From positions 310,001 to 374,000 of the forward strand of contig NZ_JAIUCY010000005.1 in NCBI RefSeq assembly GCF_020179755.1: a DNA stretch of 64,000 bases, given 5' to 3'. The notes below the pieces were generated by a model. That model did no database searches. It saw only the letters and a list, made by a program, of their open reading frames with translations, and was not told where the DNA came from. This document shows positions 22,045 through 41,662 of the stretch, piece after piece. The translations under genes and the position numbers were made by a program. Position 1 is the stretch's first letter; every line of letters starts with the position of its first letter. This stretch comes from Herbaspirillum sp. alder98. GTDB lineage: Bacteria > Pseudomonadota > Gammaproteobacteria > Burkholderiales > Burkholderiaceae_D.

Positions 22045-25000
22045 ATGCAAGAACGCACCATCGTCACCCTCGATCGCAACCAGATCGAACTGCGCGCTCA
22101 CCAGACCCTGTTGATACCGGTCGTGCAACGCGCTCCTTTGGCGCACTACACGGTGCGCCTGATGCGTGCCTGGAACGACAGCGACATCGATATCGCCATC
22201 CCCACCGCGCACCTGATATCGCCGGAAGGATTCAGCCTGGCCCGCGTAGTCGGCCCGCCCCACCGCAGGCACTGCGAAGTCGAGGTCAGCAACCGCCACG
22301 GCCGCATTCGCTATCGGTTCATTTCAGACCACCGCGCTCCCATCGCAGCACTGCGACAGCGCATCGATGCCCTGCCGCAACGCGCCCGTCGCCTGCGCCA
22401 GGCGCGACTCGACCTCATGCTCGCGGCCAGGCCGACGCCGCCATCGATGCCACTACAAGTCGATCCGGAGGTGCGTGTCGACATCCGCAGGCTGAGCCGG
22501 GCCACGACTTCATGCGCCATCAACCTCGTCTTTGCAGGGGCGGCCGAGCCGCCGCAGATCCTCGACATGTTCGGCCCGATCGACGCCTGGCGCGACGGTG
22601 GTTTTTCGAGCATCAGGATCGACGTCGACGACACCCTGGCAGGGTCTGCCCGCTATGCGCTTGTCTGGCCCGCTGGCGTGACGACCACCATCGTCGTCGA
22701 GATTGGATCGCGTTCCGCCTCGAACTTTCATCAATACATGATGCAGGTAGCCGGCCACGACGATACCGCATCGGGCGCGCGACAACTGCCGATCGCGGTG
22801 CAAGAACTCGGCCGCGACGAACTGGAACTGGCCATCACACGGCTGCGCAACCATGCCCTGTCGGCACGCGGCGAGGGTGCCTTCGATATGGTCACCGACG
22901 AAGTCTGGCGCCATGTCCTGACGCGGCGCCAGACGCCGCGCAGCCTGGTGTATCCGTCCTCGGCGATCTGGCGTGCGTCCTGGGATCGCCTGTGCGACGA
23001 CGCCTTCGCCATGCAAGATCTCTATCAGTTCAGCAACGACTGGTTCCTGCGGCATGCGTTGCCGCGCCTGGCGCTGGGGTCGCTCAACCAGATCTTCGAT
23101 AGCACCGGCCAGGACCCGCGGGCGTACCGGCAGACGGTTCCGCCGATGCTGCGCCAGCTGGAGGTGCCCTTTGCGGGGCTCGACCACGCGCAAGTCATGC
23201 AAGCCTGCCGCAGTTTGCGCAATGCATGGCTGACCTCTTCGGCCGTGAGGCTGGTGCCGGCCTTGCAACGACATCGCCTGTTACGCAGCTCGGCGTGTCG
23301 GCAGGCCCTGGCCGACCGTGGTTCGGTCGTGATCGACTGGCTGCTGCCCGAACCCGACATGGGCGCTGCCACGACCGCTGCCCACCCCGCCTGGAACGCG
23401 GTCATCGGGCGGGCGATGGCCACGCCGCCGCCCCAGCATGAGCGCATGACGGGCTATCAGCAGTTCATGCGCCTGCGTCACGTGCTGGCGTCGAGCTATC
23501 CCGACTACCTCCAGCTACAACTTGCCGAGTTGAAGCGGCTGCTGCGTGGTGCGGGCGTCTACCACAGCCTGCATGCCCTGGCGCTGGTCGAGTTCGAGCG
23601 GGATGACACCGATCGCCTCCTGCCGCCGTTGCGCGTCTGTTTTGTCGAGACCTTGCTGCAGGATGGATTGCCTGATGATCTCTCGCCGCAGGCTGACCTC
23701 TACCTGATGCATGCACAAGCCGGCGCGCTGGCCTGGCAAGCCGCCGCGCTGACGCGCTCGTCACTGGAGCAGATGCTGATGCAAGCCGCCGCCGACGCCC
23801 GGCAACGGCACCACACTGCGGTGGCACGCTACTGGAGCCGCTATGACGACGCGCAATCCGGGGGCGATGACACGCACGCCATGATCCTGTCCGCCCAGGC
23901 CTGCCTGGCGGCGCACGACCTGTGCAACGCCGGCCATCTTTCGGCAACCGGCCTGCGGCTCATCATCGCCGCGGCCGGCTTTGGCACGCCCGGGACAGGA
24001 GAGGCAAGAACCCACCTGCTCGACCTCGGCGGCGTGATCTCGATCGACCTGGTGACGATCCGTGGCGACGATGGCACGGTCATCCTGTATCGCCCCGGTC
24101 AATGGCCACTATTCCAGCAGTATCCGGACATGAGCGCCATGCGCCTGGCGCTGGCGGAAGAGTGCGCGAACGATGTCGCCTGTCGGCAATGGGCGTCCCA
24201 TTTCGACCCGGCGGCGCGCCCCGATTCGTTCAAGGCCGGCATCGACAGCCTGCTGTCCGGGCTCGGCTGCGGCGAGGCCGTGGCACGGGTGGCACTGGCC
24301 GAAGCGCGGGTCCGTGTCGAAGGCGATGTATTTCACCAGGTGGCGCGACGTCAGCAACAGGCCGCCACGACTGCGGCAACCGAGACCCATGCGATGTCCG
24401 CCTCTCCATGGAGCGATGCCGAGCGATTCTTCGACGACGATCTCGACCTGTCGACCTACCCCGCCTCGGGCGCATGGCTGGATGCGCTGATGGCCGCATC
24501 GGATCGCCACGCGCCGGGCCGCTCAACCTGGGAACGCGACAGCCACATCGTGACCATGCCACTGACGGGTGTGCTGGCGCTGTCATCCGAACTGCAACAA
24601 GAGCTGTTGCAAACCGCGTGCCGGCAAGAGCGCGAACAGGCGCTCTGGCACCAGCGGGCGCCGGACATCGGCATCGACGGGGCACGCTACATGCACGATT
24701 TCCTGCGCAGGACCTTCGCCGATCGCTTCACGGGCGACGCCCTCGATGTCGACCAGTTGCTGCTCAACGAATATTACCCACCGCAGTCGCATGTCGCTTT
24801 CTACATGTTCAACGACATCGATCTGCTGCGTCGGCGCAAGACCTCGATCCCCCTGTCGCAATTGAGCTATCGCAACATCGATGTCGTCAATGTATGGGAG
24901 AGCCTGATCAACGGTGGCGAGCGCTATTTCACCGTCTCGCACCGGGACACCTCGCCCCAGTACTACGACGAGCAGTTCGACAATGTGGTCGACCCGGAAG

Positions 25001-27006
25001 CGCTGGTACGCGCCCTCATCGACAGCGGCGAATTCGACTTTGTCGCCCATCACCAGCAGCAGATCATCCGCTACTTCACCGATCACGCCACGACCCTGGC
25101 ACGGCTTGCCCGCGAGCGCGCCCAACTGACGGCACAACTGATGGTGCATGAGGGCCAATTGAGCGCTGACGATTACCGGCTCGCCGCGTCCGCTTTCGGG
25201 ACGACAGCCGACCTGAGGGACGACGTGCTTGCCTACCCGTTGCGCGTGGGCGGCCATGCCGCCCGCGATTGCCTGCACCTGCACTGCACCGCCAGCGGCA
25301 GGCGGCTGCTCTACCTGGCCGGCGATGACATGCCGTACCTGGGCTTCGATAACCTGCAGGCGGCGCGACAATTCCTGCTCGATCTGGGACGCGACCGACC
25401 ACGACTGCTGGACTTCGCGCAGACCCACTTTGCCCAAGAAGATGCGCACGACCGGCGCGCGCCGGGCGGCCTGCGACTGACGCTGGTGCCCGGCGTCATC
25501 AGCGTGCTGCAGTCGGTCGACCAGGCTTCGATGCTCAATGCCAACCCGCAGCTTGCACGGGAACGTCCCAAGACCCGGCATGATGCGCTGATGCGACGAC
25601 GCAGCCAGGAGCGACTGCATGGCCTGCTGGCGGCCCGGTCGCCGATCGCCGGTGACCCCTTCATGGCGCTGGTGACGATCAGCCAGCAAGGTGCGATGGC
25701 AGACGCGGCCTATTTCATCCGTTCGGCATCCGATCGGGCCAAGGAAGAATGGATGGAATATGCCCGCATCGTGCCGGTGGATTTCGTCGATGGCGTGGTC
25801 AGGCTGGCGCTGGGGAAAACCGCCGACGATCTGCGCGCAGCACGCCTGAGCCTGGGCATCGACCTGATCCTGAACCTGATTCCGGCGCCCACGTTCTCAC
25901 CCAAATCAATCAGCCTGCGCCGCACCGCCAACCCGGTGATTGCGATCGCGGGCAGCCGCAGCGCGCACGCCCTGGCGCGCAGCGCCACCGGCAACGAGCC
26001 GGTCGCTCGCCTGGCCCGCTGGTTCAAGCCGCCGCAACGCATCAATGGCAAGATCGGCTACGTGCTGAGCCCTTCGCGCGCGCATCTCTGGCATCGCGCC
26101 GAACACAAGCTGATCTCGACCCTGCTGGACAGCCGCGCCTTCAACGCCACGGTCCAGGACGCCCGGGCCATTTTGCATACCCCTTCGCCCCCCAGCTCGC
26201 CGCGCTGGTACACAGTCGCTACGCAGGCGATCCGCCTGGATCGGGCGGCCACCCGATTCTTCAACCAACTCACACCGCCAGCGCGGCACTACCTGCGTGA
26301 ACTGGCCGACGTCGACGACTTGTTCGAGCTGGCCTATCGCTCGGCCCCGGTGCATGGTTACGCAGCCCTGGGGCGCGGGCTGGTGGTGGGTGAAAACCAT
26401 GCCACCACAGCGGCCCGACGGTTCATCAACGACAACCTGGAGCGACTTTCCAACTGCGGCGTGAGGCTGCTCTATACCGAGGTCTTCAAGCGCGACGCCG
26501 ACAACGAGCTCCTCAGGATATTCAACGCCGGCGGCGATTTTCCGGATCACGTGCTGAGGCGCTTGAACAACCTGGACAGGAACGCCATGCCCCGCAGCGG
26601 CGCCGAATTTTCGGATGGGCAACCCAGTGCCAGCCTGCTGAGGCTGTTCGAGAACGCACGCCGTCATGGTCTTGAAGTGCGTGCCGTGGACAATGTCCCG
26701 GCCGCCGCCGCCGATTACCTGCACCAGCCGTTCACCTCGCCCCACCCGCGCACGTCGTCGATGAATTACGTCGCCTATCAGGTCATTCGGCATGACCAGG
26801 CCCACTTCAGAGGGCAGGCCTGGGTGGCGCATGTAGGCGCCGGCCATGCAGTGAGGGATCACGGCATCCCGGGCCTCAACGAAATCACGGCGGCCCCTTC
26901 CGTGTTCGTCCATTCCGGCAATGACGCGACGCCGTTGACCCTTGGCGACTATCACCTTGCTGTCGATGGCATCACGGCAATACCTCGGTTGCAGCCGCCT
27001 GCGTGA
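22045..27006 (+). CDS. giant toxin/effector-like protein with C-terminal EreA/ChaN/TIKI-like domain
   Basis: A 1653-residue protein with no signal peptide. Residues 1 to about 1250 are mostly helical and not assigned; the middle and late parts recall the large toxins annotated with dermonecrotic-toxin or membrane-targeting domains in Pseudomonas and relatives. A hydrophobic stretch near 1270-1285 (LSLGIDLILNLIPAPTF) may contact membrane. The C-terminal 200 or so residues carry the EreA/ChaN/TIKI superfamily pattern: GENH with Glu1450 and His1452, a second acidic residue Glu1479 in LLYTEVF, and HVGAGH with His1596 and His1601. Members include erythromycin esterase, ChaN, Tiki proteases and domains of MARTX-type toxins. 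The gene stands alone between two chemoreceptors with no immunity or chaperone gene. The secretion route is unknown. Family placement is by motif and needs a profile search. Confidence 0.62.
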   Translation: MQERTIVTLDRNQIELRAHQTLLIPVVQRAPLAHYTVRLMRAWNDSDIDIAIPTAHLISPEGFSLARVVGPPHRRHCEVEVSNRHGRIRYRFISDHRAPIAALRQRIDALPQRARRLRQARLDLMLAARPTPPSMPLQVDPEVRVDIRRLSRATTSCAINLVFAGAAEPPQILDMFGPIDAWRDGGFSSIRIDVDDTLAGSARYALVWPAGVTTTIVVEIGSRSASNFHQYMMQVAGHDDTASGARQLPIAVQELGRDELELAITRLRNHALSARGEGAFDMVTDEVWRHVLTRRQTPRSLVYPSSAIWRASWDRLCDDAFAMQDLYQFSNDWFLRHALPRLALGSLNQIFDSTGQDPRAYRQTVPPMLRQLEVPFAGLDHAQVMQACRSLRNAWLTSSAVRLVPALQRHRLLRSSACRQALADRGSVVIDWLLPEPDMGAATTAAHPAWNAVIGRAMATPPPQHERMTGYQQFMRLRHVLASSYPDYLQLQLAELKRLLRGAGVYHSLHALALVEFERDDTDRLLPPLRVCFVETLLQDGLPDDLSPQADLYLMHAQAGALAWQAAALTRSSLEQMLMQAAADARQRHHTAVARYWSRYDDAQSGGDDTHAMILSAQACLAAHDLCNAGHLSATGLRLIIAAAGFGTPGTGEARTHLLDLGGVISIDLVTIRGDDGTVILYRPGQWPLFQQYPDMSAMRLALAEECANDVACRQWASHFDPAARPDSFKAGIDSLLSGLGCGEAVARVALAEARVRVEGDVFHQVARRQQQAATTAATETHAMSASPWSDAERFFDDDLDLSTYPASGAWLDALMAASDRHAPGRSTWERDSHIVTMPLTGVLALSSELQQELLQTACRQEREQALWHQRAPDIGIDGARYMHDFLRRTFADRFTGDALDVDQLLLNEYYPPQSHVAFYMFNDIDLLRRRKTSIPLSQLSYRNIDVVNVWESLINGGERYFTVSHRDTSPQYYDEQFDNVVDPEALVRALIDSGEFDFVAHHQQQIIRYFTDHATTLARLARERAQLTAQLMVHEGQLSADDYRLAASAFGTTADLRDDVLAYPLRVGGHAARDCLHLHCTASGRRLLYLAGDDMPYLGFDNLQAARQFLLDLGRDRPRLLDFAQTHFAQEDAHDRRAPGGLRLTLVPGVISVLQSVDQASMLNANPQLARERPKTRHDALMRRRSQERLHGLLAARSPIAGDPFMALVTISQQGAMADAAYFIRSASDRAKEEWMEYARIVPVDFVDGVVRLALGKTADDLRAARLSLGIDLILNLIPAPTFSPKSISLRRTANPVIAIAGSRSAHALARSATGNEPVARLARWFKPPQRINGKIGYVLSPSRAHLWHRAEHKLISTLLDSRAFNATVQDARAILHTPSPPSSPRWYTVATQAIRLDRAATRFFNQLTPPARHYLRELADVDDLFELAYRSAPVHGYAALGRGLVVGENHATTAARRFINDNLERLSNCGVRLLYTEVFKRDADNELLRIFNAGGDFPDHVLRRLNNLDRNAMPRSGAEFSDGQPSASLLRLFENARRHGLEVRAVDNVPAAAADYLHQPFTSPHPRTSSMNYVAYQVIRHDQAHFRGQAWVAHVGAGHAVRDHGIPGLNEITAAPSVFVHSGNDATPLTLGDYHLAVDGITAIPRLQPPA

Positions 27007-27226
27007 GACCGGCGTGGAAGATTGATCACGACGCCATGCCGTCGTGCCCGCAGGCAATGGATTTCACGTCAGTCGGGGCGCTGGCGCAAACAGCGGGGCA
27101 AAGACCTCCCTGCTCTTCGTTCCGGGCGATACGGGCCCCGCATTAGAATCAATGCATTGTCAGGAAATTGCTGGCATCGGCTATCAACACGGTTCCCCCC
27201 GACCATCCAGTCCACGAAAGGGTTCC

Positions 27227-28804
27227 ATGATGAAGCTGTCCCAGATGAAAGTTTCCCGTCGCCTCGACCTTGGGTTCGGTGTCCTGCTGCTGCAGCTGGC
27301 GCTGATCGTCGCCATCGGCGTCCACCTCATGGGCGAAGTCAATACCCGCCTCAATTCCATCAGCAACGTCAACAACGTCGAAACGCAGCTGGCCGTCGCC
27401 CTGCATGCCTCGCTCTATGAGCAATCGCTTGTCACCCGCGATCTGCTGCTGGCGCCGGATAGGGCGACCCGCAATCTCTTCAGCGAACGCCTCAAGGACG
27501 AAATCGTCAATTACCAGAACATCGAAAAGAAGCTCGATGTCATGTTCAACAGCCTGGAAGAAACCGCCGACATCGAAAAGGCCACCATGGCGCAGGTCAT
27601 CACACTGTCAACCTCTGCCGCCCCGATCCTGAAAAAACTGATCGAATTGGTGGATGCCGACGACATGACCGGGGCGCGTCGACTGCAGGTTGACAGCCTG
27701 TCGGCCAAGCAAGCGCTGCGCCGCACGAAACTCAATGAACTGACCAAACTGGAAGAGCGGCTCAACAAAGTCGCCAGCGAAGACGCCACCTCGTTCTATG
27801 TGACCGCCAAGCACAGCATGATCATGCTGGGCGGCCTTGCCTTGACACTCGGCATTGCCCTGGCCCTGGCCATCTCGCGCGGGCTGGTCGGGCAGTTGGG
27901 GGGTGAGCCGGCCTATGCGACCGACATCGCCAACCGCATCGCGACCGGCAACCTCAGTGGCGAAATCAGGGTCGGTAGCAAGCAGGCCAGTTTGCTCGGG
28001 GCCATCAAGTCGATGAGCGGCAATTTGAAAGTGATTGTCAGTGAAGTGCGTAGCGGCACCGACGCCATGGTGACCGCCACCAGCGAAATCGCCACCGGCA
28101 ACTTCGATCTCTCGGCCCGCACCGAACAGCAGGCCGGCGCACTGGAAGAAACGGCAGCCGCCATCGAAGAGCTGACCGCCGCCATACGGAAAAATGCCGA
28201 GCATACGGCGCAGGCCAGCCAATTGGCCAACTCCGCGTCCGGGATCGCCGAGAATGCCGGCCAGGCGATTACTCGCATGATCAACACCATGAATGCCATC
28301 GACTCGTCGTCCAAGCAGATCGTCAACATCATCAACGTGATCGACACCATTTCGTTCCAGACCAATATCCTGGCATTGAATGCTGCAGTGGAGGCCGCGC
28401 GCGCCGGCGAACAGGGGCGCGGTTTCGCGGTGGTGGCCTCGGAGGTGCGATCGCTGGCCCAGCGCAGCACGGCGGCGGCCCGAGAAATCAAGACCCTGAT
28501 CGAAGAATCGGTCACCAACGTCAACAACGGTTACCAACTGGTGCAGCAGACCGGCGGCACCATGGATGGCGTGGTGGAGAGCATTCGCAAGGTGTCCGAA
28601 GTGGTCGCCGAGATTACCGCTGCCGGCCGTGACCAGGCCTCGGGCATCCAGCAGATCGCCGATGCCATCGTGCAGATGGACCAGACCACCCAGCAGAACG
28701 CGGCGCTGGTGGAACAGGCTGCGGCTGCGGCCAGCACGCTGCAGGATCAGGCGCGACGGCTGCAACAATCGGTCAGCGTATTTTTATTGAAGCCGCAGGC
28801 GTAG
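27227..28804 (+). CDS. methyl-accepting chemotaxis protein (second)
   Basis: A 525-residue chemoreceptor closely related in layout to the one at 20121: TM1 (about 13-32), a four-helix-bundle periplasmic domain, TM2 (about 190-212), a linker starting GQLGGEP, and the signalling domain with [20 protein letters not shown] at the tip. Two adjacent ATGs at 27227 and 27230 could start it; AAAGGG upstream fits both. The frame is open further upstream but without a family-like sequence. It lacks the C-terminal xWxxF pentapeptide and ends soon after the signalling helices. The pair may have come from duplication, with the toxin-like gene now between them. Confidence 0.93.
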   Translation: MMKLSQMKVSRRLDLGFGVLLLQLALIVAIGVHLMGEVNTRLNSISNVNNVETQLAVALHASLYEQSLVTRDLLLAPDRATRNLFSERLKDEIVNYQNIEKKLDVMFNSLEETADIEKATMAQVITLSTSAAPILKKLIELVDADDMTGARRLQVDSLSAKQALRRTKLNELTKLEERLNKVASEDATSFYVTAKHSMIMLGGLALTLGIALALAISRGLVGQLGGEPAYATDIANRIATGNLSGEIRVGSKQASLLGAIKSMSGNLKVIVSEVRSGTDAMVTATSEIATGNFDLSARTEQQAGALEETAAAIEELTAAIRKNAEHTAQASQLANSASGIAENAGQAITRMINTMNAIDSSSKQIVNIINVIDTISFQTNILALNAAVEAARAGEQGRGFAVVASEVRSLAQRSTAAAREIKTLIEESVTNVNNGYQLVQQTGGTMDGVVESIRKVSEVVAEITAAGRDQASGIQQIADAIVQMDQTTQQNAALVEQAAAAASTLQDQARRLQQSVSVFLLKPQA

Positions 28805-28819
28805 TTCAGATGGCAGACT

Positions 28820-29764
28820 TCAGATGGAAAACGCCAGCTCCCCTGCTTCGTCGTTGGGCATCACGGTCACCGCCACCTGCATTTCCTGCTGGCCACCGCC
28901 GATGAGCACGCCCCGCAGCGGCGAGAGGTCGAGAAAATCGCGGCCCCAGCCCAGCGTGATGTGGCCGGTGTCGGGAAAGATGCCGTTGGTGGGATCGGCA
29001 TCGATCCAGGCCCCGGAGGCGCCATCGATGCCGGGGCAATACACCGACACCCAGGCATGCGAGGCATCGGCGCCGATCAGTCTCGGCTGTCCCGGCGGCG
29101 GCTCGGTCAGCAGGTAACCGCTGACGTAGCGCGCCGGCAAGCCGATCGAGCGCAGGCACGACAGCATCAGGTGCGCAAAATCCTGGCAGACGCCACGCCG
29201 GTTGACAAACACTTCCGTGACCGGCGTCGATACGGTGGTGGCTTCGGGATCGAATGAAAATTCCTCGAAGATGCGCCACATAAGGGTGCGCACGCCTTCG
29301 ACCACCGAGGTCCCGGGGCGAAAGCACTGCGCCGCATACTGGATGAATTCGCGCTTGATGCGTACATGCGACGACTCGAACATGAAATTGCTGGCATCGA
29401 GCATGTCGGGCGAGAGCGGACGCGCGCCCTGATACGACGTCAGCATGGCCGCCTCTTCCCACGACATGGTGTCGCCCGGCACCTGGCGCGGCGTCAGCTC
29501 GACCAGCGAATCGGCATGGACCTCAAGGCTGGTGTGATCGGTGTCGAGCGAGAAGGACTTGATCACATTGCCGAAGTTGTCTTCGTAGCTGCGCACCAGC
29601 TGCGGCGCCGGCGCCACGTTGACCTGGTGCGACAGGCAGCGCTGCCACGGCAGCGTGCGCGGGGTCAGGTGCAGCATCTGGTGCGACAGCCGCACCGGCA
29701 GCGAATACTGGTAGCTGGTCTGATGCCGGATCCGGTAGACGAAACGCGTCAGTTCTTCGGTCAT
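28820..29764 (-). CDS. transglutaminase-like cysteine protease family protein
   Basis: A 314-residue protein with the bacterial transglutaminase-type N-terminal region (1-80, RIRHQTSYQYSLPVRLSHQ) followed by a transglutaminase-like core. The triad is visible as Cys193 in GVCQDFAHLM, His236 in ASHAWVSVY and Asp257 in ADPTNG. In this family the fold usually acts as a peptidase or amidase rather than a cross-linker. It is the last gene of a minus-strand operon (start 1 base after the stop of the ATP-grasp/alpha-E gene), the context described for ATP-grasp ligase systems that build or remove peptide tags. Its stop lies 15 bases from the convergent chemoreceptor. Confidence 0.9.
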   Translation of the reverse strand: MTEELTRFVYRIRHQTSYQYSLPVRLSHQMLHLTPRTLPWQRCLSHQVNVAPAPQLVRSYEDNFGNVIKSFSLDTDHTSLEVHADSLVELTPRQVPGDTMSWEEAAMLTSYQGARPLSPDMLDASNFMFESSHVRIKREFIQYAAQCFRPGTSVVEGVRTLMWRIFEEFSFDPEATTVSTPVTEVFVNRRGVCQDFAHLMLSCLRSIGLPARYVSGYLLTEPPPGQPRLIGADASHAWVSVYCPGIDGASGAWIDADPTNGIFPDTGHITLGWGRDFLDLSPLRGVLIGGGQQEMQVAVTVMPNDEAGELAFSI

Positions 29765-29765
29765 C

Positions 29766-32267
29766 TCAAACCCCCTGGCTGACCGGCGCGGTCAGCGGTG
29801 TGAAGTAGTGGCGCGACAGATCGTCGGAGAGCATGTAGCCGCCGCTGACCGCATCGCGCATCAATTGCGTCAGGCGCGCATTGGCCTGCTCCATGGTGGG
29901 CGTGCCATGCGCGAAGTCGGCCAGGTTCATCGCCTCGAGCTGAGTCGACAGGTGGGTCGGGATGGTCATGCTGAGCAGGCCAAGCTGCTGGCCGATATCG
30001 GCCAGGTATTGCTGCAGCATGCGGAACTGGTAGGCCATGCCATGCGGGTTCGATACATCGAACACCAGCAGGTGCAGCACCGGCAGCCATTCGGGCGTGC
30101 GCCGGTAACGCACGCGATAGGTCACGATGCTGCTGGCGGACTCCAGCAGCCACGACAGCGCCGCCGTCTGGCGCGCCGGCGGCAGCCGCAGGAAGTTGTC
30201 GAACAGGGTCGCCATGTTGACCATGCGCTCGATATGCCGCCCCACCATCAGGAACTGCCACCCGGCGTCGCGCGTCATGTCGTCCAGCGCATGGCCGGCC
30301 AGCCCGGAGCAGGCGTCGATGACATTGCCCAGCACCTGCTGGGCCGATGCCGGACTGTTGATGCGGTCATTGACCATGGCCGGCATCTTGGTGAGGGCAT
30401 GCCAGTTGTCCAGCGAGAGATGTTCGCGTACCTGGTAGGCGGCCTGTGCCAGCTGACGCAACTGGGTGGCGACGGTGACCGCCGCCGATGGATCAATCAC
30501 CGCCGCCTGCAGGCTCTGCTGCAACCCGGTGATGGTCGGCCTGGGATCGGCCTTGGGCATCAGCACCCCCAGCTGGCCGCAGATCCAGCTGACACTGCCG
30601 AGCATGCCACGGCTTTCGCTCTGGCCGTCGGTGGTGTATTGCAGCGTCGTGCGCAGCAACCGCGCCAGGTTCTTGACCCGCTCCGAATAACGTCCCATCC
30701 AGAACAGGTTTTCACCGGCATGCGATGACACATCGACCGTATTGCGGATCACCAGGCCACCGGGGGCAACCACGTTTTCTTCTTCAGGGATTTCACGACC
30801 GGTATCGTTGTCGTGCAATACCCAGACATCCTTGGTGGTGCCGCCCTGCTGCATCGACACCACGTCGCGCTTCTGGCGCGACGCCACGCGGGTCAAGCCG
30901 CCGGGCATCACCTTGTAGCCACCGGCGCCGTCTGCCACCGCAAACACGCGCAGGCTGATGGTGCGATTCATCAGGCGATAGTCGCCACTGCGCGACATCA
31001 CCGGCGCCTGCGACAGCCGCACCCACTCCTGGGCGGCATACGCATGCGGCTGCAGTTGCAAGCTTTCGATCAGGCGACGTCGTGCGCTGCCGGTGATGCT
31101 GTGGCCGAACACCGGCTGCATGCGCATCGATGAAAAGGCAGGCACGATCACCAGATCGTCGAAGTGCGCCAGCGTGTAATCGAGCGCCGGCTTTTCGCCG
31201 CACCACCAGGACGCCACGGTCGGCAACGCCAGCGGCTCGCCCAGCAAGCGCTCGCTGATGGCCGGCAGGAACCCGTGCAGCGCGGTCGATTCGAGCATGC
31301 CGCTGCCCAGCGAATTGGCCACCAGCACATTGCCCAGCCGCGCGGCCTGGGTCAGGCCGGGCACGCCCAGCGCCGAGTCGGCGCGCAATTCGAGTGGATC
31401 GCAGAAATCATCGTCCATGCGGCGCAGGATCGCATGCACCCGCCGCAAGCCATTGAGGGTCTTCAGGAAGACCTGGTCGCCGCGCACCGTCAGGTCCACC
31501 CCTTCGACCAGGGGAAAGCCCAGCGTATGCGCCAGGAAGGCGTGCTCGGAATAGGTTTCGTTATAGGGACCGGGCGTGAGCAGCACCACCAGCGGCTGCT
31601 CGCCGTTGGCCGGCGCCAGTCGCATCAAGGTCGAGCGCAGCGCATGGAAGTAGGCGTGCGGCGACTCGACCTGCATGTCGCGCAGCGCCTCGGGCATGGC
31701 GCGCGCCATGATCTGCCGGTTCTGCAATGCATAGCCGGTGCCGGACGGCCCCTGGGTACGATCCGACACCACCCACCAGGTGCCATCGGCCGAACGCGCC
31801 AGGTCGATCGCATAGGCATGCAGGTGCACTCCGCCCGGTGGCGTGAAACCATGGCACGGCAACAGATAGCCGTGCTGGCCGAACACCAGCGCCGGCGGCA
31901 GCAGGCCTTCGCGCAGCAGGCGTTGCTCGCCGTAGATGTCGGCCAGCATGGCATTCATCAGGCGCGCGCGCTGGGCTACCGCGCGCTCCAGCGAACGCCA
32001 CTCGTCGGCGGCCACGATATGCGGCAGCAGGTCGAGCTCCCACGGGCGATTGGCGCCCTTGGGGTCGGCATAGACGTTATAGGTCACGCCGTCGCTGGCG
32101 ATGGCGTCGCGGACTTCGTTGGCGCGCCGGCGCAGCATTTCCGGCGACAGGTTTTCGAGCTGGTCGATCAGCGTGCGCCAGTGCGGCCGCAAGCGGCCGT
32201 CGGCCTGCAGCATCTCGTCATAGCGATCGCTGCTGACTGGATAACTTTCCAGAAGACGCTGGGGCAT
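29766..32267 (-). CDS. circularly permuted ATP-grasp fused to alpha-E domain
   Basis: An 833-residue fusion. Residues 1 to about 480 are a circularly permuted type-2 ATP-grasp domain (formerly DUF404/DUF407), with AYAIDLARSADGTWWVVSDRTQGPSGTGYALQNR read in parts and the C-terminal GGLTRVASRQ block. About 505-833 is an alpha-E (DUF403) all-helical domain opening with AGENLFWMGRYSERVKNLAR. ATP-grasp enzymes of this type are predicted amide or peptide ligases; alpha-E is their constant partner of unknown role. The ATG at 32267 is chosen over a TTG eight codons upstream; neither has a good ribosome binding site. The separate genes at 38207 and 39636 are paralogs of the two halves. Confidence 0.9.
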   Translation of the reverse strand: MPQRLLESYPVSSDRYDEMLQADGRLRPHWRTLIDQLENLSPEMLRRRANEVRDAIASDGVTYNVYADPKGANRPWELDLLPHIVAADEWRSLERAVAQRARLMNAMLADIYGEQRLLREGLLPPALVFGQHGYLLPCHGFTPPGGVHLHAYAIDLARSADGTWWVVSDRTQGPSGTGYALQNRQIMARAMPEALRDMQVESPHAYFHALRSTLMRLAPANGEQPLVVLLTPGPYNETYSEHAFLAHTLGFPLVEGVDLTVRGDQVFLKTLNGLRRVHAILRRMDDDFCDPLELRADSALGVPGLTQAARLGNVLVANSLGSGMLESTALHGFLPAISERLLGEPLALPTVASWWCGEKPALDYTLAHFDDLVIVPAFSSMRMQPVFGHSITGSARRRLIESLQLQPHAYAAQEWVRLSQAPVMSRSGDYRLMNRTISLRVFAVADGAGGYKVMPGGLTRVASRQKRDVVSMQQGGTTKDVWVLHDNDTGREIPEEENVVAPGGLVIRNTVDVSSHAGENLFWMGRYSERVKNLARLLRTTLQYTTDGQSESRGMLGSVSWICGQLGVLMPKADPRPTITGLQQSLQAAVIDPSAAVTVATQLRQLAQAAYQVREHLSLDNWHALTKMPAMVNDRINSPASAQQVLGNVIDACSGLAGHALDDMTRDAGWQFLMVGRHIERMVNMATLFDNFLRLPPARQTAALSWLLESASSIVTYRVRYRRTPEWLPVLHLLVFDVSNPHGMAYQFRMLQQYLADIGQQLGLLSMTIPTHLSTQLEAMNLADFAHGTPTMEQANARLTQLMRDAVSGGYMLSDDLSRHYFTPLTAPVSQGV

Positions 32268-32312
32268 AGGAACAGGGAATGGGCGCGGCAATCATGCCGC
32301 GCCAGACCGGGA

Positions 32313-35654
<3,342 letters not shown>

Positions 35655-35774
35655 GGATATCCTTTACGACATGCGAATAGATGAAATCACGGCGCTGGAA
35701 TCGACGGCTGACGATTGGCACGACCTGCGGGATTGATAATGCATTTTTCTTACCGCCTCGTTACAGTGCATGAG

Positions 35775-37004
35775 CTATGCCCTGTGATGCATATTAATGA
35801 AATCACGCAGGCGCGGGTAGATTTCATTTTCCCAGCGGCGACCATTGAAGACGCCATAATGACCTACGGCCGTCTGAACATGGTGCAAGCGCATGGCAGG
35901 ACGGATGCCAGTGCACAGTTCCTGTGCAGCGAGGGTCTGACCCACGGCGCAGATGTCGTCCTTTTCGCCTTCGATGGTAAATAACGCCGTGCGCCGGATG
36001 GCGGCGGGGTTCACTGGCGCCCCCTGGTAGCGCAGCGCGCCCAGCGGTAACGCGTGCTCCTGGAACACGGTGCGCACGGTTTCGAGGTAAAACTCTGCCG
36101 GCAGGTCGGCCATGGCGAAATATTCTTCGTAAAAGGTCTTGATCTGGGTCGCCCGATCGATTTCGCCATCGGCCAGGTGCTGGTAAAGATTGCGAAACGC
36201 ATCCACGTGACGGTTCAGGTTCATGTTCATGAACGCCCCCAACTGCACAAAACCAGGGTAGACCCGACGCCCCGCGCCCGCATGGCGCGCCGGGACGGTG
36301 CTGATCAGGTTGCGCTCGAACCATTCGATGGGCCGGCTCTTGGCGAGTTCATTGACGGCGGTCGGATTGATGCGGGTATCGATCGGCCCGGCCATCAACG
36401 TCAGGCTGCGCGGCTGCGCCGGGTTGCCGGCCTCGGCCATGACGGCCGCCGCGCTCAGCGCGGCCACCGTCGGCTGGCACACCGCCAGCAAATGCGCCCC
36501 CGGCCCCAGGGCCTCCAGGAAAGAGATCACATGCGCCACATATTCGTCCATGCCGAAGCGGCCATGACCAAGCTCGACATCGCGTGCATTGCGCCAGTCG
36601 GTGATATAGACATCGTGGTCACGCAACAGGGTCTTGACGGTGCCCCGCAGCAAGGTGGCGAAATGGCCTGACATGGGCGCCACCACCAGTACGCGCGGCT
36701 GCGGCTCGGATGTTGCCTTGCGAAAACGTAGCAAGGTGCAGAACGGCGTGGCGCTGACGATCTCTTCATGCACCGCAATCGTGCGTCCGCCCTCGCTGAC
36801 CGAGCCGATATCGAAGGCCGGTCGCGCATGGGTGAGCTGGGTGCGGGCAAATACCTCGCAGGCCGAGGCCAGCTTGCGCATCGGCGGCGGCCCGGGCAAG
36901 CCGGGCCACTGGTAGCCCAAGACCGGCACCATCATCCTGGCCCAGGCCCGCAGCGGATCGGTGGCATCGGCGTATTGCTGGTAGAGCTGGTAGGTATTGA
37001 TCAT
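35775..37004 (-). CDS. phaZ: intracellular polyhydroxybutyrate depolymerase
   Basis: PhaZ degrades stored polyhydroxyalkanoate granules in the cytoplasm. The 409-residue product begins MINTYQLYQQYADATDPLRA and matches the PhaZ1 type of Ralstonia in length. Its nucleophile is a cysteine, Cys176 in LLAVCQPTV, in place of the serine of lipase boxes, with the likely triad partners Asp350 (EKDDI) and His382 (VGHYGVF). No signal peptide, in line with intracellular action. It lies upstream of the DUF2126 gene on the same strand with a 120-base gap; a functional link to that operon is not evident. Its presence implies that the organism stores PHB. Confidence 0.93.
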   Translation of the reverse strand: MINTYQLYQQYADATDPLRAWARMMVPVLGYQWPGLPGPPPMRKLASACEVFARTQLTHARPAFDIGSVSEGGRTIAVHEEIVSATPFCTLLRFRKATSEPQPRVLVVAPMSGHFATLLRGTVKTLLRDHDVYITDWRNARDVELGHGRFGMDEYVAHVISFLEALGPGAHLLAVCQPTVAALSAAAVMAEAGNPAQPRSLTLMAGPIDTRINPTAVNELAKSRPIEWFERNLISTVPARHAGAGRRVYPGFVQLGAFMNMNLNRHVDAFRNLYQHLADGEIDRATQIKTFYEEYFAMADLPAEFYLETVRTVFQEHALPLGALRYQGAPVNPAAIRRTALFTIEGEKDDICAVGQTLAAQELCTGIRPAMRLHHVQTAVGHYGVFNGRRWENEIYPRLRDFINMHHRA

Positions 37005-37304
37005 CAGTTGCCGCCTTTAGCTCTTGATCTTGTATCGCGTAGTCTCGGTCGCTCGTGAACCGTTGCGATGCAATATGCATGCCACGGAAGTTCAGCCCGA
37101 CAAGGCTTTGTCGGCAGCGCGGTGCGACAAATCACGCGCCTGGCACGCGCTTTGCAAGCATTGGCTTCAAGCGCCGCGCACAACGCTCGCCCACCCCCTT
37201 GATTCCGACTGAGCAGATACGAGACCAAGGGACGTGCCCACGCCACTCGCGTTGGCACTGAGTGCTCAAAGTCAAACCCGATAGAAAACCGATAAAGGAC
37301 TGAC
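37005..37304. other. divergent intergenic region phaZ / glutathione S-transferase
   Basis: About 300 bases that should hold both promoters. An AAAGGA ribosome binding site for the plus-strand gene lies at about 37293-37298. I see no strong operator palindrome and no gene; short frames in both directions lack signatures. Confidence 0.45.
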
Positions 37305-37961
37305 ATGCCTAAAACGACTTTGCGCATCACCAGCAAGAATTATTCTTCGTGGTCGCTGCGCGGCTGGCTGCTGGCCCGCTTCGCCGGCCTCTCGTTCGAA
37401 GAAGACATCGTGCCGCCGGACGACGCCGCCGCACGCGCCGAAATCCTGCTGCTGTCATCGTCGATCCTGGTGCCGAGCCTGAAACATGGGTCGGTGCTGG
37501 TATGGGACACCCTGGCCATTGCCGAATACCTTAACGAAATCCGACCGTCGGCTAAGCTGCTGCCGGCCGACCAGGCCGCCCGCGCGCACTGCCGTTCGGT
37601 GTGCGGCGAGATGCATTCGGGTTTTGCCGCCCTGCGCGCGGCGCTGCCCATGAACCTCAAGGGACACTTTCCCAATTTCAAGGTCTGGTCACGCGCCGAA
37701 GCCGACATCACTCGCATCACCACCATCTGGAGGGAATGCCTGGCGCAATATGGCGGTCCCTTCCTGTTCGGCGAGCAGCGCAGCATGGCCGACGCCATGT
37801 ACGCGCCGGTGGTGACGCGCTTCGTGACCTACGATGTCAAGCTGGACCCGATCTGCACCGCCTACGGCAAGCGCATCATGGCCATGCCGGAAATGCAGGA
37901 ATGGATCACCGCCGCCCGCAAGGAGCCGGAGGATATCGATGAACTGGATGTGGAGTTCTAA
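37305..37961 (+). CDS. glutathione S-transferase family protein
   Basis: A 218-residue cytoplasmic GST. The N-terminal thioredoxin-like half has RITSKNYSSWSLRGWLLARF, whose serine pair is the likely glutathione-activating site, and the SLKHGSVLVWDTLAIAEYL block with the conserved turn before the DTLAI helix. The helical C-terminal half follows from about 90. It resembles the YfcF/GstB-type group with a serine active site. It opens a plus-strand set that continues with the second ATP-grasp gene after a 245-base gap, so cotranscription is uncertain. Confidence 0.9.
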   Translation: MPKTTLRITSKNYSSWSLRGWLLARFAGLSFEEDIVPPDDAAARAEILLLSSSILVPSLKHGSVLVWDTLAIAEYLNEIRPSAKLLPADQAARAHCRSVCGEMHSGFAALRAALPMNLKGHFPNFKVWSRAEADITRITTIWRECLAQYGGPFLFGEQRSMADAMYAPVVTRFVTYDVKLDPICTAYGKRIMAMPEMQEWITAARKEPEDIDELDVEF

Positions 37962-38206
37962 CTGTTTGATGCGACCGGAAAAGTTAATCAATCGAGGGCT
38001 GGCGCGTCGGACGAATCCGACAGCCGGCTGTCAGCCAATGCGCCGGCGCCGGACGGGCCGAGGGTCTGGATGAACTTTCCACTGTCCAAAAACTAAGGCC
38101 TCTGATAGTCTTGTTTCACGCACGCAGGTGCAGCTTCTCCTTGCCTCGTTTGTCACAACTCAACCCAAGAAGAGTTCTTTCTTCAGCAGGAAAAAGAATC
38201 AAACTT

Positions 38207-39634
38207 ATGGCAAATTTTTTCGATGAGATGTACTCAGGCGGCGCCGCTGGCGCTTCGCCGGACGTGCGCCAGCACTATAGCCAATTCGCTACGTGGCTGG
38301 CGTCCCAGTCGGCCGAGACCATCGCCCGCAAGCGGGCCGAATCGGACCTGATCTTCCGCCGCGTCGGCATTACCTTCGCCGTCTACGGCAACGACGCCGG
38401 CACCGAGCGGTTGATCCCGTTCGACATCATCCCGCGCATCATCCACAAGGCCGAATGGGCCAAGCTCGAAGCCGGGCTGGTGCAGCGCGTGAAGACGCTC
38501 AACATGTTCATTCATGACATCTATCATGAGCAGAAGATCGTCAAGGCCGGCATCATTCCGGCCGAGCAGATCTTCCAGAACGCCCAGTACCGGCGCGAGA
38601 TGCAGGACGTCAAGGTAGTCAACGACATCTACGCCCACATCGCCGGGGTCGACATCGTGCGCGCCGGCGAGGGCGAGTTCTATGTGCTCGAGGACAACCT
38701 GCGGGTGCCATCGGGCGTGTCGTACATGCTGGAAAACCGCAAGATGATGATGCGGCTCTTCCCGGACCTGTTCACCCGCCACAAGATCGCCCCGGTCGAT
38801 CATTATCCCGACCTGCTGCTGGACAACCTGCGCTCGGTGGCGCCGGCCGGCGTGACCGATCCGGTGGTGGTGGTGATGACACCCGGCATGTACAACTCGG
38901 CCTATTTCGAGCACGCCTTCCTGGCCCAGCAGATGGGCGTGGAGCTGGTCGAGGGGCAGGATCTGTTCGTCAAGGACAATGTGGTCTACATGCGGACCAC
39001 CCGCGGCCCGCGTCGGGTCGACGTGATCTATCGCCGCATCGACGACGACTTCCTCGATCCGCTGGCGTTCCGTCCCGATTCGGCATTGGGTGTGCCGGGC
39101 CTGCTGCAGGCGTACCGCGCCGGCAAGGTGACGCTGACCAATGCCATCGGCACCGGCGTAGCCGACGACAAGTCGATCTATCCCTACGTGCCGGACATGG
39201 TGCGTTTCTACCTGTCGGAAGAACCCATCCTCAACAACGTGCCGACCTTCCAGTGTCGCAAGAAGGAAGACCTGTCCTATACGCTGGCCAATCTGGACAA
39301 GCTGGTCGTGAAGGAAGTGCACGGCGCGGGCGGCTACGGCATGCTGGTCGGCCCCGCCTCCACCAAACAGGAAATCGAAGACTTCCGTGCCCGCATCATC
39401 GCCAAGCCCGACGGCTATATCGCCCAGCCCACGCTGGCGCTGTCGGTCTGCCCGACCTATGTCGACGCCGGCATCGCGCCGCGCCACCTCGACCTGCGCC
39501 CGTTCGTGTTGTCCGGCAAGCAGGTGACGATGGTCAAGGGTGGCCTGACGCGCGTGGCGCTCAAGGAGGGCTCGCTGGTGGTGAATTCGTCGCAGGGCGG
39601 CGGCACCAAGGACACCTGGATTCTGGAGAAATGA
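38207..39634 (+). CDS. circularly permuted ATP-grasp protein (second copy)
   Basis: A 475-residue stand-alone circularly permuted type-2 ATP-grasp protein (formerly DUF404/DUF407), paralogous to the first half of the 833-residue fusion at 29766. Matching blocks include ITFAVYGNDAGTERLIPFDI near the start, LRVPSGVSYMLENRKMMMRL in the middle, FVKDNVVYMRTTRGPRRVDV and the terminal GGLTRVALKEGSLVVNSSQGG. It is predicted to activate a carboxylate with ATP and join it to an amine. The start at 38207 gives the family N-terminus MANFFDEM; the open frame upstream does not. The alpha-E gene begins 1 base after its stop, so the two are tightly coupled. Confidence 0.92.
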   Translation: MANFFDEMYSGGAAGASPDVRQHYSQFATWLASQSAETIARKRAESDLIFRRVGITFAVYGNDAGTERLIPFDIIPRIIHKAEWAKLEAGLVQRVKTLNMFIHDIYHEQKIVKAGIIPAEQIFQNAQYRREMQDVKVVNDIYAHIAGVDIVRAGEGEFYVLEDNLRVPSGVSYMLENRKMMMRLFPDLFTRHKIAPVDHYPDLLLDNLRSVAPAGVTDPVVVVMTPGMYNSAYFEHAFLAQQMGVELVEGQDLFVKDNVVYMRTTRGPRRVDVIYRRIDDDFLDPLAFRPDSALGVPGLLQAYRAGKVTLTNAIGTGVADDKSIYPYVPDMVRFYLSEEPILNNVPTFQCRKKEDLSYTLANLDKLVVKEVHGAGGYGMLVGPASTKQEIEDFRARIIAKPDGYIAQPTLALSVCPTYVDAGIAPRHLDLRPFVLSGKQVTMVKGGLTRVALKEGSLVVNSSQGGGTKDTWILEK

Positions 39635-39635
39635 C

Positions 39636-40640
39636 ATGTTGAGCCGTACCGCCGATCACCTGTTCTGGATGGCGCGCTACACCGAGCGCGCCGAAAATAC
39701 CGCCCGCATGCTCGACGTGCATGTACAGACCGCGCTGCTGCCGCAATCGACCGACGACGCCGAACAGGGCTGGCGCGCCGTGCTGGGCATCTCCGAACTG
39801 CTGCACGGCTATGACCAGAAGTACAAGCAGGTCACGCAAAAGGATGTGATCGACTTCATGGTGCGCGACCCCGACAACCCGTCGTCGATTGCCGCCTGCC
39901 TGCGCCAGGCGCGTGAGAACGCGCGTGCCGTGCGTGGCGCCCTGACCACCGAAGCGTGGGAAATCCAGAACGCCACCTGGATCAAGATGCAGTCGTACCT
40001 GCAGACCAATGCGCTGGAGCAGAATCCCAGTGATTTCTTCGAATGGGTCAAGCACCGTTCGCACCTCTCGCGTGGCGTCACCATCGGCACCATGTTGAAG
40101 GATGAGGCGTTTCACTTCATCCGCCTGGGCACCTTCCTTGAGCGGGCCGACAACACCGCCCGCATCATCGACGTCAAGTTCCACGGCGCCAAGGAAGGCC
40201 AGAGCCAAAGCCAGAGTCAAAGCCAGGGAGGGCAGTCGCAATCCCAATCGCAGGGCAGCGATGATGACAGCGCCCAGATCGACTTCTACTACTGGGCGGC
40301 GATCCTGCGTTCGGTGTCGGGCTTCGAGATCTATCGCAAGGTGTATCGCGATGTCATCACGCCCGAGCGGGTCGCTGAATTGCTGATCTTGCGCGCCGAC
40401 ATGCCAAGATCGCTGCTGGGTTGCATGGGCCAGGTGCTGTCGAACCTGAAGAATGTGCATAACGACGTGTCGGCCGATACCGAGCGTTTCGCCGGCAAGC
40501 TGCATGCCGACCTGCAATTCGCCCGCATCGAAGAAGTGCTCGACGCCGGCCTGCACGATTACCTGACGGTGTTTCTCGAACGCATCTTCGAGCTGGGCAA
40601 TCGGATCAGCCGCGATTTTCTTGTTCCTTTGGCAGCATGA
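39636..40640 (+). CDS. alpha-E domain protein (second copy)
   Basis: A 334-residue all-helical alpha-E (DUF403) protein, paralogous to the C-terminal half of the fusion at 29766. It opens MLSRTADHLFWMARYTERAE, the counterpart of AGENLFWMGRYSERVKNLAR there. A Gln/Ser repeat of about 20 residues (about 188-209, GQSQSQSQSQ and further QS pairs) followed by acidic residues interrupts the domain between two helices and looks like a flexible loop. It is partner to the ATP-grasp protein just upstream. The Anbu gene follows after 143 bases. Confidence 0.92.
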   Translation: MLSRTADHLFWMARYTERAENTARMLDVHVQTALLPQSTDDAEQGWRAVLGISELLHGYDQKYKQVTQKDVIDFMVRDPDNPSSIAACLRQARENARAVRGALTTEAWEIQNATWIKMQSYLQTNALEQNPSDFFEWVKHRSHLSRGVTIGTMLKDEAFHFIRLGTFLERADNTARIIDVKFHGAKEGQSQSQSQSQGGQSQSQSQGSDDDSAQIDFYYWAAILRSVSGFEIYRKVYRDVITPERVAELLILRADMPRSLLGCMGQVLSNLKNVHNDVSADTERFAGKLHADLQFARIEEVLDAGLHDYLTVFLERIFELGNRISRDFLVPLAA

Positions 40641-40783
40641 AAATTTGCCTATTCAGGCAACGCACCTAAGAAAATTCAAAATTGTGCCGTTAGTGTAGAT
40701 ACTCGGCGACAGAAACACCCGGGCGCGCTTTTGCGCGAACGGGGTTCCTGTAAAATTCGCGTTTTACATTAGCAGATCACATC

Positions 40784-41662
40784 ATGACCTATTGCGTTGC
40801 CATGCGCCTGAACAGCGGCCTGGTATTCCTGTCCGATTCTCGAACCAATGCGGGCGTCGATCACATCGGCACTTTCCGCAAGATGAGTGTTTACGAGAAT
40901 CCAGGCGATCGCGTGATGATCCTGATGACCGCCGGCAACCTGTCGATCTCGCAATCCATCAGGCAACTGTTGAGTGATCGCACCAATACCGACGGCCGCA
41001 GCATCTGGACCGCCACGTCGATGTACGAAGCGGCGCAGATCCTGGGCGATGCCATCCGCGCAGTGCACGACCGCGAAGCGGGCGAACTCAACAAGTTCGG
41101 CATCGACTTCAACGTCAGCATCATCTTCGGTGGCCAGATCAAGGGCGAGCGCTGCCGCCTGTTCCAGATGTACTCGGCCGGCAACTTCATCGAATCGCAC
41201 GACGAAAACACTTATTTCCAGATCGGCGAAGCCAAATACGGCAAGCCCATCATCGACCGCGTGGTCACGCCGCAGACTACCCTCGACGAAGCCGCCAAGT
41301 GCGCGCTGATCTCGATGGACTCGACGCTGAAGTCCAATATCTCGGTCGGCCTGCCGCTCGACCTGCTGGTCTACAACACCGACGAGCTGGCGGTGACGCG
41401 TTTTGTCACCATCGATGAGCAGAACCAGTATTTCCAGATGATTCGCCGCAGCTGGGGTGCGCAATTGAAGCGCGTGTTCGAGGCTATCGACGACCCGGTC
41501 TGGGATGCCGCCCCCGAGGCCACGCTCAATGTACTGTCGTCTTCGTCCGAGCACAGCGAACCGGTACGCGTGCCGCCGCCCCATGGCGTCGCCCGCGAAG
41601 CGCAGGCGGTGCCGCGCCAGACTCTGGCGCAGCAGGACGGCGATTCCGAACAGGCTACCTGA
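40784..41662 (+). CDS. Anbu-type proteasome-like peptidase
   Basis: A 292-residue member of the Anbu group (ancestral beta subunit), a bacterial relative of proteasome beta and HslV subunits. It starts MTYCVAMRLNSGLVFLSDSR; removal of Met would leave the N-terminal threonine nucleophile, with Asp (in LSDSRTN) and Lys (in FRKM) where the proteasome catalytic Asp17 and Lys33 lie. The core ends near 245 and a disordered, Ser/Pro/Gln-rich tail follows. Anbu genes are known to sit with ATP-grasp, alpha-E and transglutaminase genes; here the transglutaminase is missing from this strand and is found in the facing operon. Its substrate is unknown. Confidence 0.92.
   Translation: MTYCVAMRLNSGLVFLSDSRTNAGVDHIGTFRKMSVYENPGDRVMILMTAGNLSISQSIRQLLSDRTNTDGRSIWTATSMYEAAQILGDAIRAVHDREAGELNKFGIDFNVSIIFGGQIKGERCRLFQMYSAGNFIESHDENTYFQIGEAKYGKPIIDRVVTPQTTLDEAAKCALISMDSTLKSNISVGLPLDLLVYNTDELAVTRFVTIDEQNQYFQMIRRSWGAQLKRVFEAIDDPVWDAAPEATLNVLSSSSEHSEPVRVPPPHGVAREAQAVPRQTLAQQDGDSEQAT

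Follow-up and report, generated by a model that had tools for sequence, protein, structure and literature searches.

A Herbaspirillum Anbu locus of two divergent operons that look reciprocally incomplete

The Anbu locus of Herbaspirillum sp. alder98, contained in a window of 64,000 nucleotides (the whole stretch of DNA that was analysed), is probably one functional system laid out as two divergent operons rather than as two copies. Compared by sequence, its halves seem reciprocally incomplete, and exceptions to this pattern exist. Its parts are already known, and the exchange of transglutaminases and the dead ligase may be new. A first-pass annotation of the same DNA, which proposed two facing versions of a ligase and transglutaminase system possibly joined in one pathway, is partly supported in its overall interpretation. 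Here ATPg and AlE denote the unfused ATP-grasp and alpha-E proteins, FUS the fused ATP-grasp/alpha-E protein, TG a transglutaminase and TGa the Anbu-type stand-alone TG; 'module' stands for DUF2126/FUS/TG1 and 'core' for ATPg, AlE and Anbu.

The minus-strand run contains TG1 (28820..29764), a transglutaminase-fold protein of 314 residues, assigned to the module type by the TG tree and its Pfam domains Bact_transglu_N and Transglut_core, whose usual motifs contain Cys193, His236 and, at 255/257, an Asp. One base pair separates it from FUS (29766..32291), which has a TTG start and in which Pfam places a circularly permuted ATP-grasp (CP_ATPgrasp_2) and Alpha-E in one reading frame of 841 residues. 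A gap of 21 bp follows, then a protein of 1113 residues (32313..35654) in which Pfam recognizes a TG domain, with its motifs present (C180, H229 and D245), and DUF2126, a putative amidoligase; 120 bp further lies PhaZ, a PHB depolymerase (35775..37004; Pfam, NCBIfam TIGR01849). On the plus strand, 300 bp from PhaZ, a GST-family protein (37305..37961; Pfam) is followed after 245 bp by ATPg (38207..39634; identified by Pfam CP_ATPgrasp_2, kinship with PDB 3N6X and residue comparison), whose open reading frame opens at TTG 38111 and whose likely true start is the ATG at 38207. AlE (39636..40640; Pfam Alpha-E; 334 residues with both ER motifs) begins 1 bp later, and Anbu (40784..41662; 292 residues) a further 143 bp downstream. 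The order and gaps of these genes place PhaZ at the head of the minus run and GST at the head of the plus run, and show that the runs diverge. The first-pass annotation had named the gene families as Pfam confirms them, every one, and had assigned the halves correctly to two strands, but it described as facing what in fact diverges and omitted PhaZ and GST in between.

The plus strand carries ATP-grasp, alpha-E and Anbu in canonical order on a single strand and, as had been noted before, without a transglutaminase, none being present in the 143-bp gap between AlE and Anbu. FUS and AlE are the only alpha-E genes found in the whole genome. A terminator scan gave no entry in the DUF2126-PhaZ or GST-ATPg gaps, its 8 regional hits being at chance level (9.7 expected). 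The same layout occurs in 13 further loci of the genus (L003-L013, L083 and L162), so that the arrangement is not an accident of one assembly; it is seen whole in L083 and L162, the fetched stretch of L003-L013 stopping inside the fusion gene, short of TG1. AlE contains a Gln/Ser-rich low-complexity insert at about residues 186-212, modelled with low confidence. A cupin-like gene of about 155 residues, which we take to encode a cupin, lies between GST and ATPg in L004, L011, L162 and L110; it is missing from the window and from L003, the remaining loci being judged by gap length only. Elsewhere in the window, a 1653-residue protein with a ToxA_N domain (PF20178) is encoded at 22045-27006 on the plus strand, adjoining a chemoreceptor gene at 27044-28804.

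Anbu has a proteasome fold by Pfam, the residues Thr1, Asp17 and Lys32, Anbu-1-type S1 residues and, as best match, a solved Anbu; its five PDB relatives at E 0.001 are all Anbu entries, some titled just 'Peptidase'. Among the matches listed, the nearest named record is the Anbu of Herbaspirillum sp. YR522, with 99% identity. PADLOC defence-protein models, the single library compared, gave 0 matches to the six locus proteins. Structures of Anbu have been solved, yet its physiological substrate and partner are described as not known in the available text of PMC5666114. The canonical Anbu operon, that of Yersinia bercovieri, encodes an ATP-grasp, an alpha-E, a transglutaminase and Anbu (PMC6376114). 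Attempts with the other proteins of this four-gene operon are reported in the accessible parts of PMC5666114 and PMC6376114; in those of the latter, pull-downs with the Yersinia proteins gave no specific contact and Anbu peptidase activity was not detected in vitro.

Trees of the ATP-grasp (41 unfused, 19 fused) and of the alpha-E (40 unfused, 19 fused domains) each separate fused from unfused copies by a single fully supported branch, at which, the program warned, long branches meet. At the sequence level the fused and unfused sets are old paralogues, one clade each, and the fused ligase is without catalytic residues, which contradicts the earlier view of two versions of one system. The 207 unfused ATP-grasps share 171 columns with an invariance of 95% or more; at 39 of these, fewer than 10% of the fused copies keep the residue, L061 still being counted as fused in this comparison. 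E162, N164, R166 and the Gly-rich loop KEVHGAGGYGML are near-invariant in unfused ATP-grasps and intact in the window's ATPg; in 31 of 31 true fused copies, the window's included, the three residues are replaced and the loop is gone. E162 and N164 correspond to magnesium ligands of glutathionylspermidine synthetase. Fused copies retain R276, R277 and D279 (unfused numbering), as well as both alpha-E ER motifs (E17-R18 and E169-R170, in 31/31). FUS is under purifying selection (dN/dS of 0.17 against L083, 0.15 against L162 and 0.31 against L110, a locus of the genus g2); ATPg is under tighter constraint than FUS (0.07, 0.06 and 0.13 against the same loci) and is the most conserved of the six genes compared. 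Judging by these residues and rates, FUS is probably a conserved dead ligase. An unfused ATP-grasp was present in all 63 DUF2126 genomes tested (28 from the phylum sample, being all that lack Anbu there, and 35 out of 136 from the order sample), with best identities of 51-78%. The family sample has 12 genomes with DUF2126 but no Anbu; in 9 of them the unfused alpha-E adjoins DUF2126, in 8 of these cases on the opposite strand, and in the other 3 it is on a different contig. The DUF2126 fold itself was reportedly assigned by Iyer in 2009 to glutamine-synthetase-like ligases; its predicted structure (mean pLDDT 36.9) is too poor for an assessment of the fold.

The distribution of TGa was followed in three sets of loci: named loci, being the best 80 of at least 560 Anbu relatives; a family sample of 145 genomes, 93 of them Anbu-positive, from which 87 regions of 86 genomes were used, leaving out the window's genome and six others, five from its genus; and a phylum sample of 200 genomes, with Anbu-positive regions from 66, the window's own genome (G000) and G007 excluded. 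The named-locus and family sets share some members. Sequence searches for TGa covered 38 genomes and counted hits at E 1e-5 or better, a threshold beyond which more distant TG-fold proteins may exist; at this threshold, TGa was found in 0 of 8 genomes of the window's genus, the window's included, each giving just two hits, TG1 and TG-DUF2126. In 12 further genomes, the same kind of search returned no hit for G015 and G093 and weak hits only for G638 and G788. Sixty of the named loci, within the best 80 of at least 560, have the core and TGa without the module, 13 the core and an adjacent module without TGa and 4 the core with neither; 3, on short contigs, miss part of the core. The 78 core loci of the family sample divide into 55 with TGa, among which 6 have an adjacent module and 7 a DUF2126 elsewhere, and 23 without it; DUF2126 is present in the genome for 20 of these 23 as against 13 of the 55 (Fisher p 3.7e-7, uncorrected for descent). 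As to TGa-less loci of this sample without DUF2126, the contig of G435 begins inside the module, a TG-only protein resembling the DUF2126 N terminus adjoins Anbu in G434, and the genome of G455 is 81% complete. Outside the family, the phylum sample has no adjacent module at 39/39 TGa-bearing core loci (the TG type of L217 being ambiguous) and no TGa at 13/13 core loci with an adjacent module; one locus combines module and Anbu without the core, 8 have Anbu alone and 5 have the core with neither, including L225, with a TG-only DUF2126-like protein, and L232, a contig of 3.2 kb.

Where the module lies beside Anbu, at least five kinds of layout occur without TGa: divergent with PhaZ and GST in between, as in the window's genus; a single operon ATPg-AlE-DUF2126-FUS-TG1-Anbu (L025, L088, L150, L154, L156-L158); DUF2126-FUS-TG1-ATPg-AlE-Anbu (L146, L153, L155); ATPg-AlE, with TG1-FUS on the other strand, and Anbu-DUF2126 (for example L170 and L172); and DUF2126-Anbu (L175, L179, L180). 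In L175 and L180 a further TG adjoins ATPg-AlE, so that there this gene, and not the module, may replace TGa; it scores nearer TG1, but in the tree it is a third kind, on a long branch outside both the TGa and TG1 clades. The genus g2, which the tree places near that of the window (within a starred set of 14 rows), has the window's layout with both PhaZ and GST and still carries TGa in 6/6 loci, which suggests that TGa was probably lost after the locus had formed. Other arrangements were seen as well. In L022, L038, L091, L098 and L099, a stretch of about 7 kb containing other genes separates Anbu from ATPg-AlE, with no TGa at the locus and DUF2126 elsewhere in the genome. In the stretch fetched for L142 (G409), Anbu is accompanied by neither ATP-grasp nor alpha-E, and a TGa-type gene lies on another contig; DUF2126 directly follows Anbu in L165 and L166, its place being taken in L164 by a TG-only protein like the DUF2126 N-terminal part.

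The suggestion in the first-pass annotation that the plus set may depend on the facing operon draws its support from genome comparison: the TGa search hit TG1 and TG-DUF2126 alone in all eight genomes of the genus, in other lineages too TGa tends to be missing where DUF2126 is present, and Anbu and DUF2126 lie within 15 kb on one contig in 16 of the 35 phylum-sample genomes (out of 200) that have both, for which chance would, by our estimate, yield well under one. Unrelated histories together with rare co-occurrence had been named as speaking against a shared pathway; the histories are indeed separate and deep, but the two sets are often linked.

Correction for descent used a tree built from 140 core loci, 138 of them different, on which the presence of TGa requires 13 changes, at least 10 of them on well-supported branches. 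These loci comprise 88 with TGa and no module, 32 with a module and no TGa, 6 with TGa and an adjacent DUF2126 module, all from a single genus, and 14 with neither; the label 'module' here also covers two TG-only cases and L152, set by hand. Of 10 independent contrasts, a mean of 4.6 had the adjacent module going against TGa, 0.0 had it going with TGa and 5.4 showed no difference (median p 0.0625, not significant); for DUF2126 anywhere in the genome, the means were 4.5 opposite and 0.3 the same (median p 0.125). The direction of the opposition is consistent, and the corrected test is not significant. By rows, DUF2126 is present in 36 of 46 TGa-less against 28 of 94 TGa-bearing genomes. Counter to the reading as one system, no DUF2126 hit was obtained for 10 of the 46 TGa-less rows, three of which are complete genomes: G015, without a TG-family hit, and G638 and G788, with weak TG hits.

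Two sigma-54-like -24/-12 sites stand back to back in the PhaZ-GST gap: one facing GST (37141..37156, plus strand), the sole perfect match in the 64 kb to the consensus used, and one facing PhaZ (37069..37084, minus strand) with 1 mismatch. Across the 19 other loci with this gap, which represent only two clades, the GST-facing site never has more than 1 mismatch (19/19, 16 of them perfect) and the PhaZ-facing site never more than 2 (19/19, 13 of them with 1 or none); as background, all loci taken together give 0.0017 perfect and 0.009 near-perfect sites for every 400 bases of strand. In the 13 loci of the genus, neither the PhaZ-DUF2126 gap nor the GST-ATPg gap has a site with up to 2 mismatches. 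In L039, where PhaZ and GST are missing, a perfect site points to ATPg and a 1-mismatch site to DUF2126. TGa operons without the module have a TGGCACGnTTCTTGAT-like motif with an atypical -12 element upstream of ATPg (at most 1 mismatch in 40/95, at most 2 in 78/95); in the window's genus, the region upstream of ATPg is without this sigma-54-like motif of other operons and has its own conserved block in the 4 sequences aligned. Among unlinked modules, 0/20 have a near-perfect site toward DUF2126, and in 5/20 a TGGCACG-TTCTTG-like motif with 1 mismatch points away from DUF2126, to the side where the unfused alpha-E sits. Since the unlinked modules are without the site and ATPg without the usual motif, joint control of the two halves can be proposed no more than tentatively. 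The conserved paired sites nevertheless suggest, as sequence motifs, control by nitrogen starvation. COG3484 we take to be Anbu. This proteasome-type protease is among the sigma-54-linked functions reported for the alpha, beta and gamma classes (PMC12316311), Anbu rises in P. putida under nitrogen limitation (PMC5666114, citing Hervas 2008), these domains co-vary with urea metabolism in marine metagenomes (PMC3597751), and in B. cenocepacia NtrC and sigma-54 are needed for both the I35_5080-83 cluster and the PhaZ/GST pair I35_4672-73 (PMC5491218).

If the locus is one system, nitrogen starvation would lead NtrC and sigma-54 to activate the two operons through the PhaZ-GST gap, supposing that its sites are used, and read-through would reach the genes downstream of PhaZ and GST. 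ATPg with AlE would be the one circularly permuted ATP-grasp ligase still live and, going by their family, form an amide or peptide bond driven by ATP; FUS, as a dead ligase, would be partner or regulator of the live pair; TG1 and TG-DUF2126 would provide the TG-fold step done by TGa in most Anbu operons; and Anbu would trim or degrade the product. More tentatively, and with well under even confidence, we propose that Anbu works with interchangeable TG partners, either TGa or the whole DUF2126 module, that the module's dead FUS binds and controls the live pair, and that this mixed live/dead ligase complex feeds the TG step and Anbu in nitrogen starvation. An enzyme together with its pseudo-enzyme would then drive a bacterial pathway of ligase and protease.

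The halves might instead be two independent nitrogen-responsive systems that happen to be neighbours, both answering nitrogen starvation, with TGa lost from the genus without replacement. We find this rather doubtful: the separation fits the 19 of 35 phylum genomes (some of them drafts) in which no single contig has Anbu and DUF2126 within 15 kb of each other, the 28 of 63 DUF2126 genomes without Anbu, the TGa-less genomes without DUF2126 and the intervening PhaZ/GST pair, a nitrogen target in B. cenocepacia (PMC5491218), but it sits badly with the mere 6/140 loci that unite TGa and an adjacent module, with a fused ligase that looks dead and with an unfused one in every DUF2126 genome tested. 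The last point equally opposes the idea, which we consider unlikely, that FUS is still an enzyme, with an altered nucleotide site or another reaction, and the module a complete second ligase system. Purifying selection on FUS, the retained R276, R277, D279 and ER motifs, and the DUF2126 domain, which by its Pfam name may itself be a ligase, would agree with an active module; the loss of E162, N164, R166 and the Gly-rich loop from every fused copy argues against it.

It is possible, if short of probable, that the locus is catabolic, the TG-fold proteins and Anbu freeing nitrogen from proteins or amides in starvation and the ATP-grasp/alpha-E pair acting on the fragments, as opposed to tagging or peptide synthesis. 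The sigma-54/NtrC context, the P. putida response and the link to urea metabolism point that way, against which stand the undetected peptidase activity mentioned above and a live ligase as the most conserved gene. This catabolic route is compatible with a single system of two operons because they differ in direction and not in parts. Complementary halves instead of duplicates would make the role of Anbu easier to test, and the locus would be a clean test, with no TGa found, one predicted live ligase, one module and nitrogen-type promoter sites together. If Anbu also works with a separate, partly dead module, earlier assays of the four-gene operon may have lacked a partner.

Compared with known systems, ATPg is a close relative of PDB 3N6X, a putative glutathionylspermidine synthase (E 1.5e-225), and shares its catalytic motifs, whereas FUS is a weaker match (E 8.3e-85) without them. 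The B. cenocepacia I35_5080-83 cluster resembles the module in combining DUF404/407, DUF403, a TG and a large TG protein, which we infer to be TG-DUF2126, in one NtrC/sigma-54-dependent cluster; as far as that source describes it, it differs in that the ATP-grasp and alpha-E of the window's module are fused, with the ligase predicted dead, and that the window's unfused pair and Anbu sit on the other strand (PMC5491218). With the canonical Anbu operon, as given in the available text of PMC6376114, the window shares ATP-grasp, alpha-E and Anbu in identical order and Anbu-1-type residues; in contrast to it, TGa is missing and a divergent DUF2126/FUS/TG1 module adjoins the core instead.
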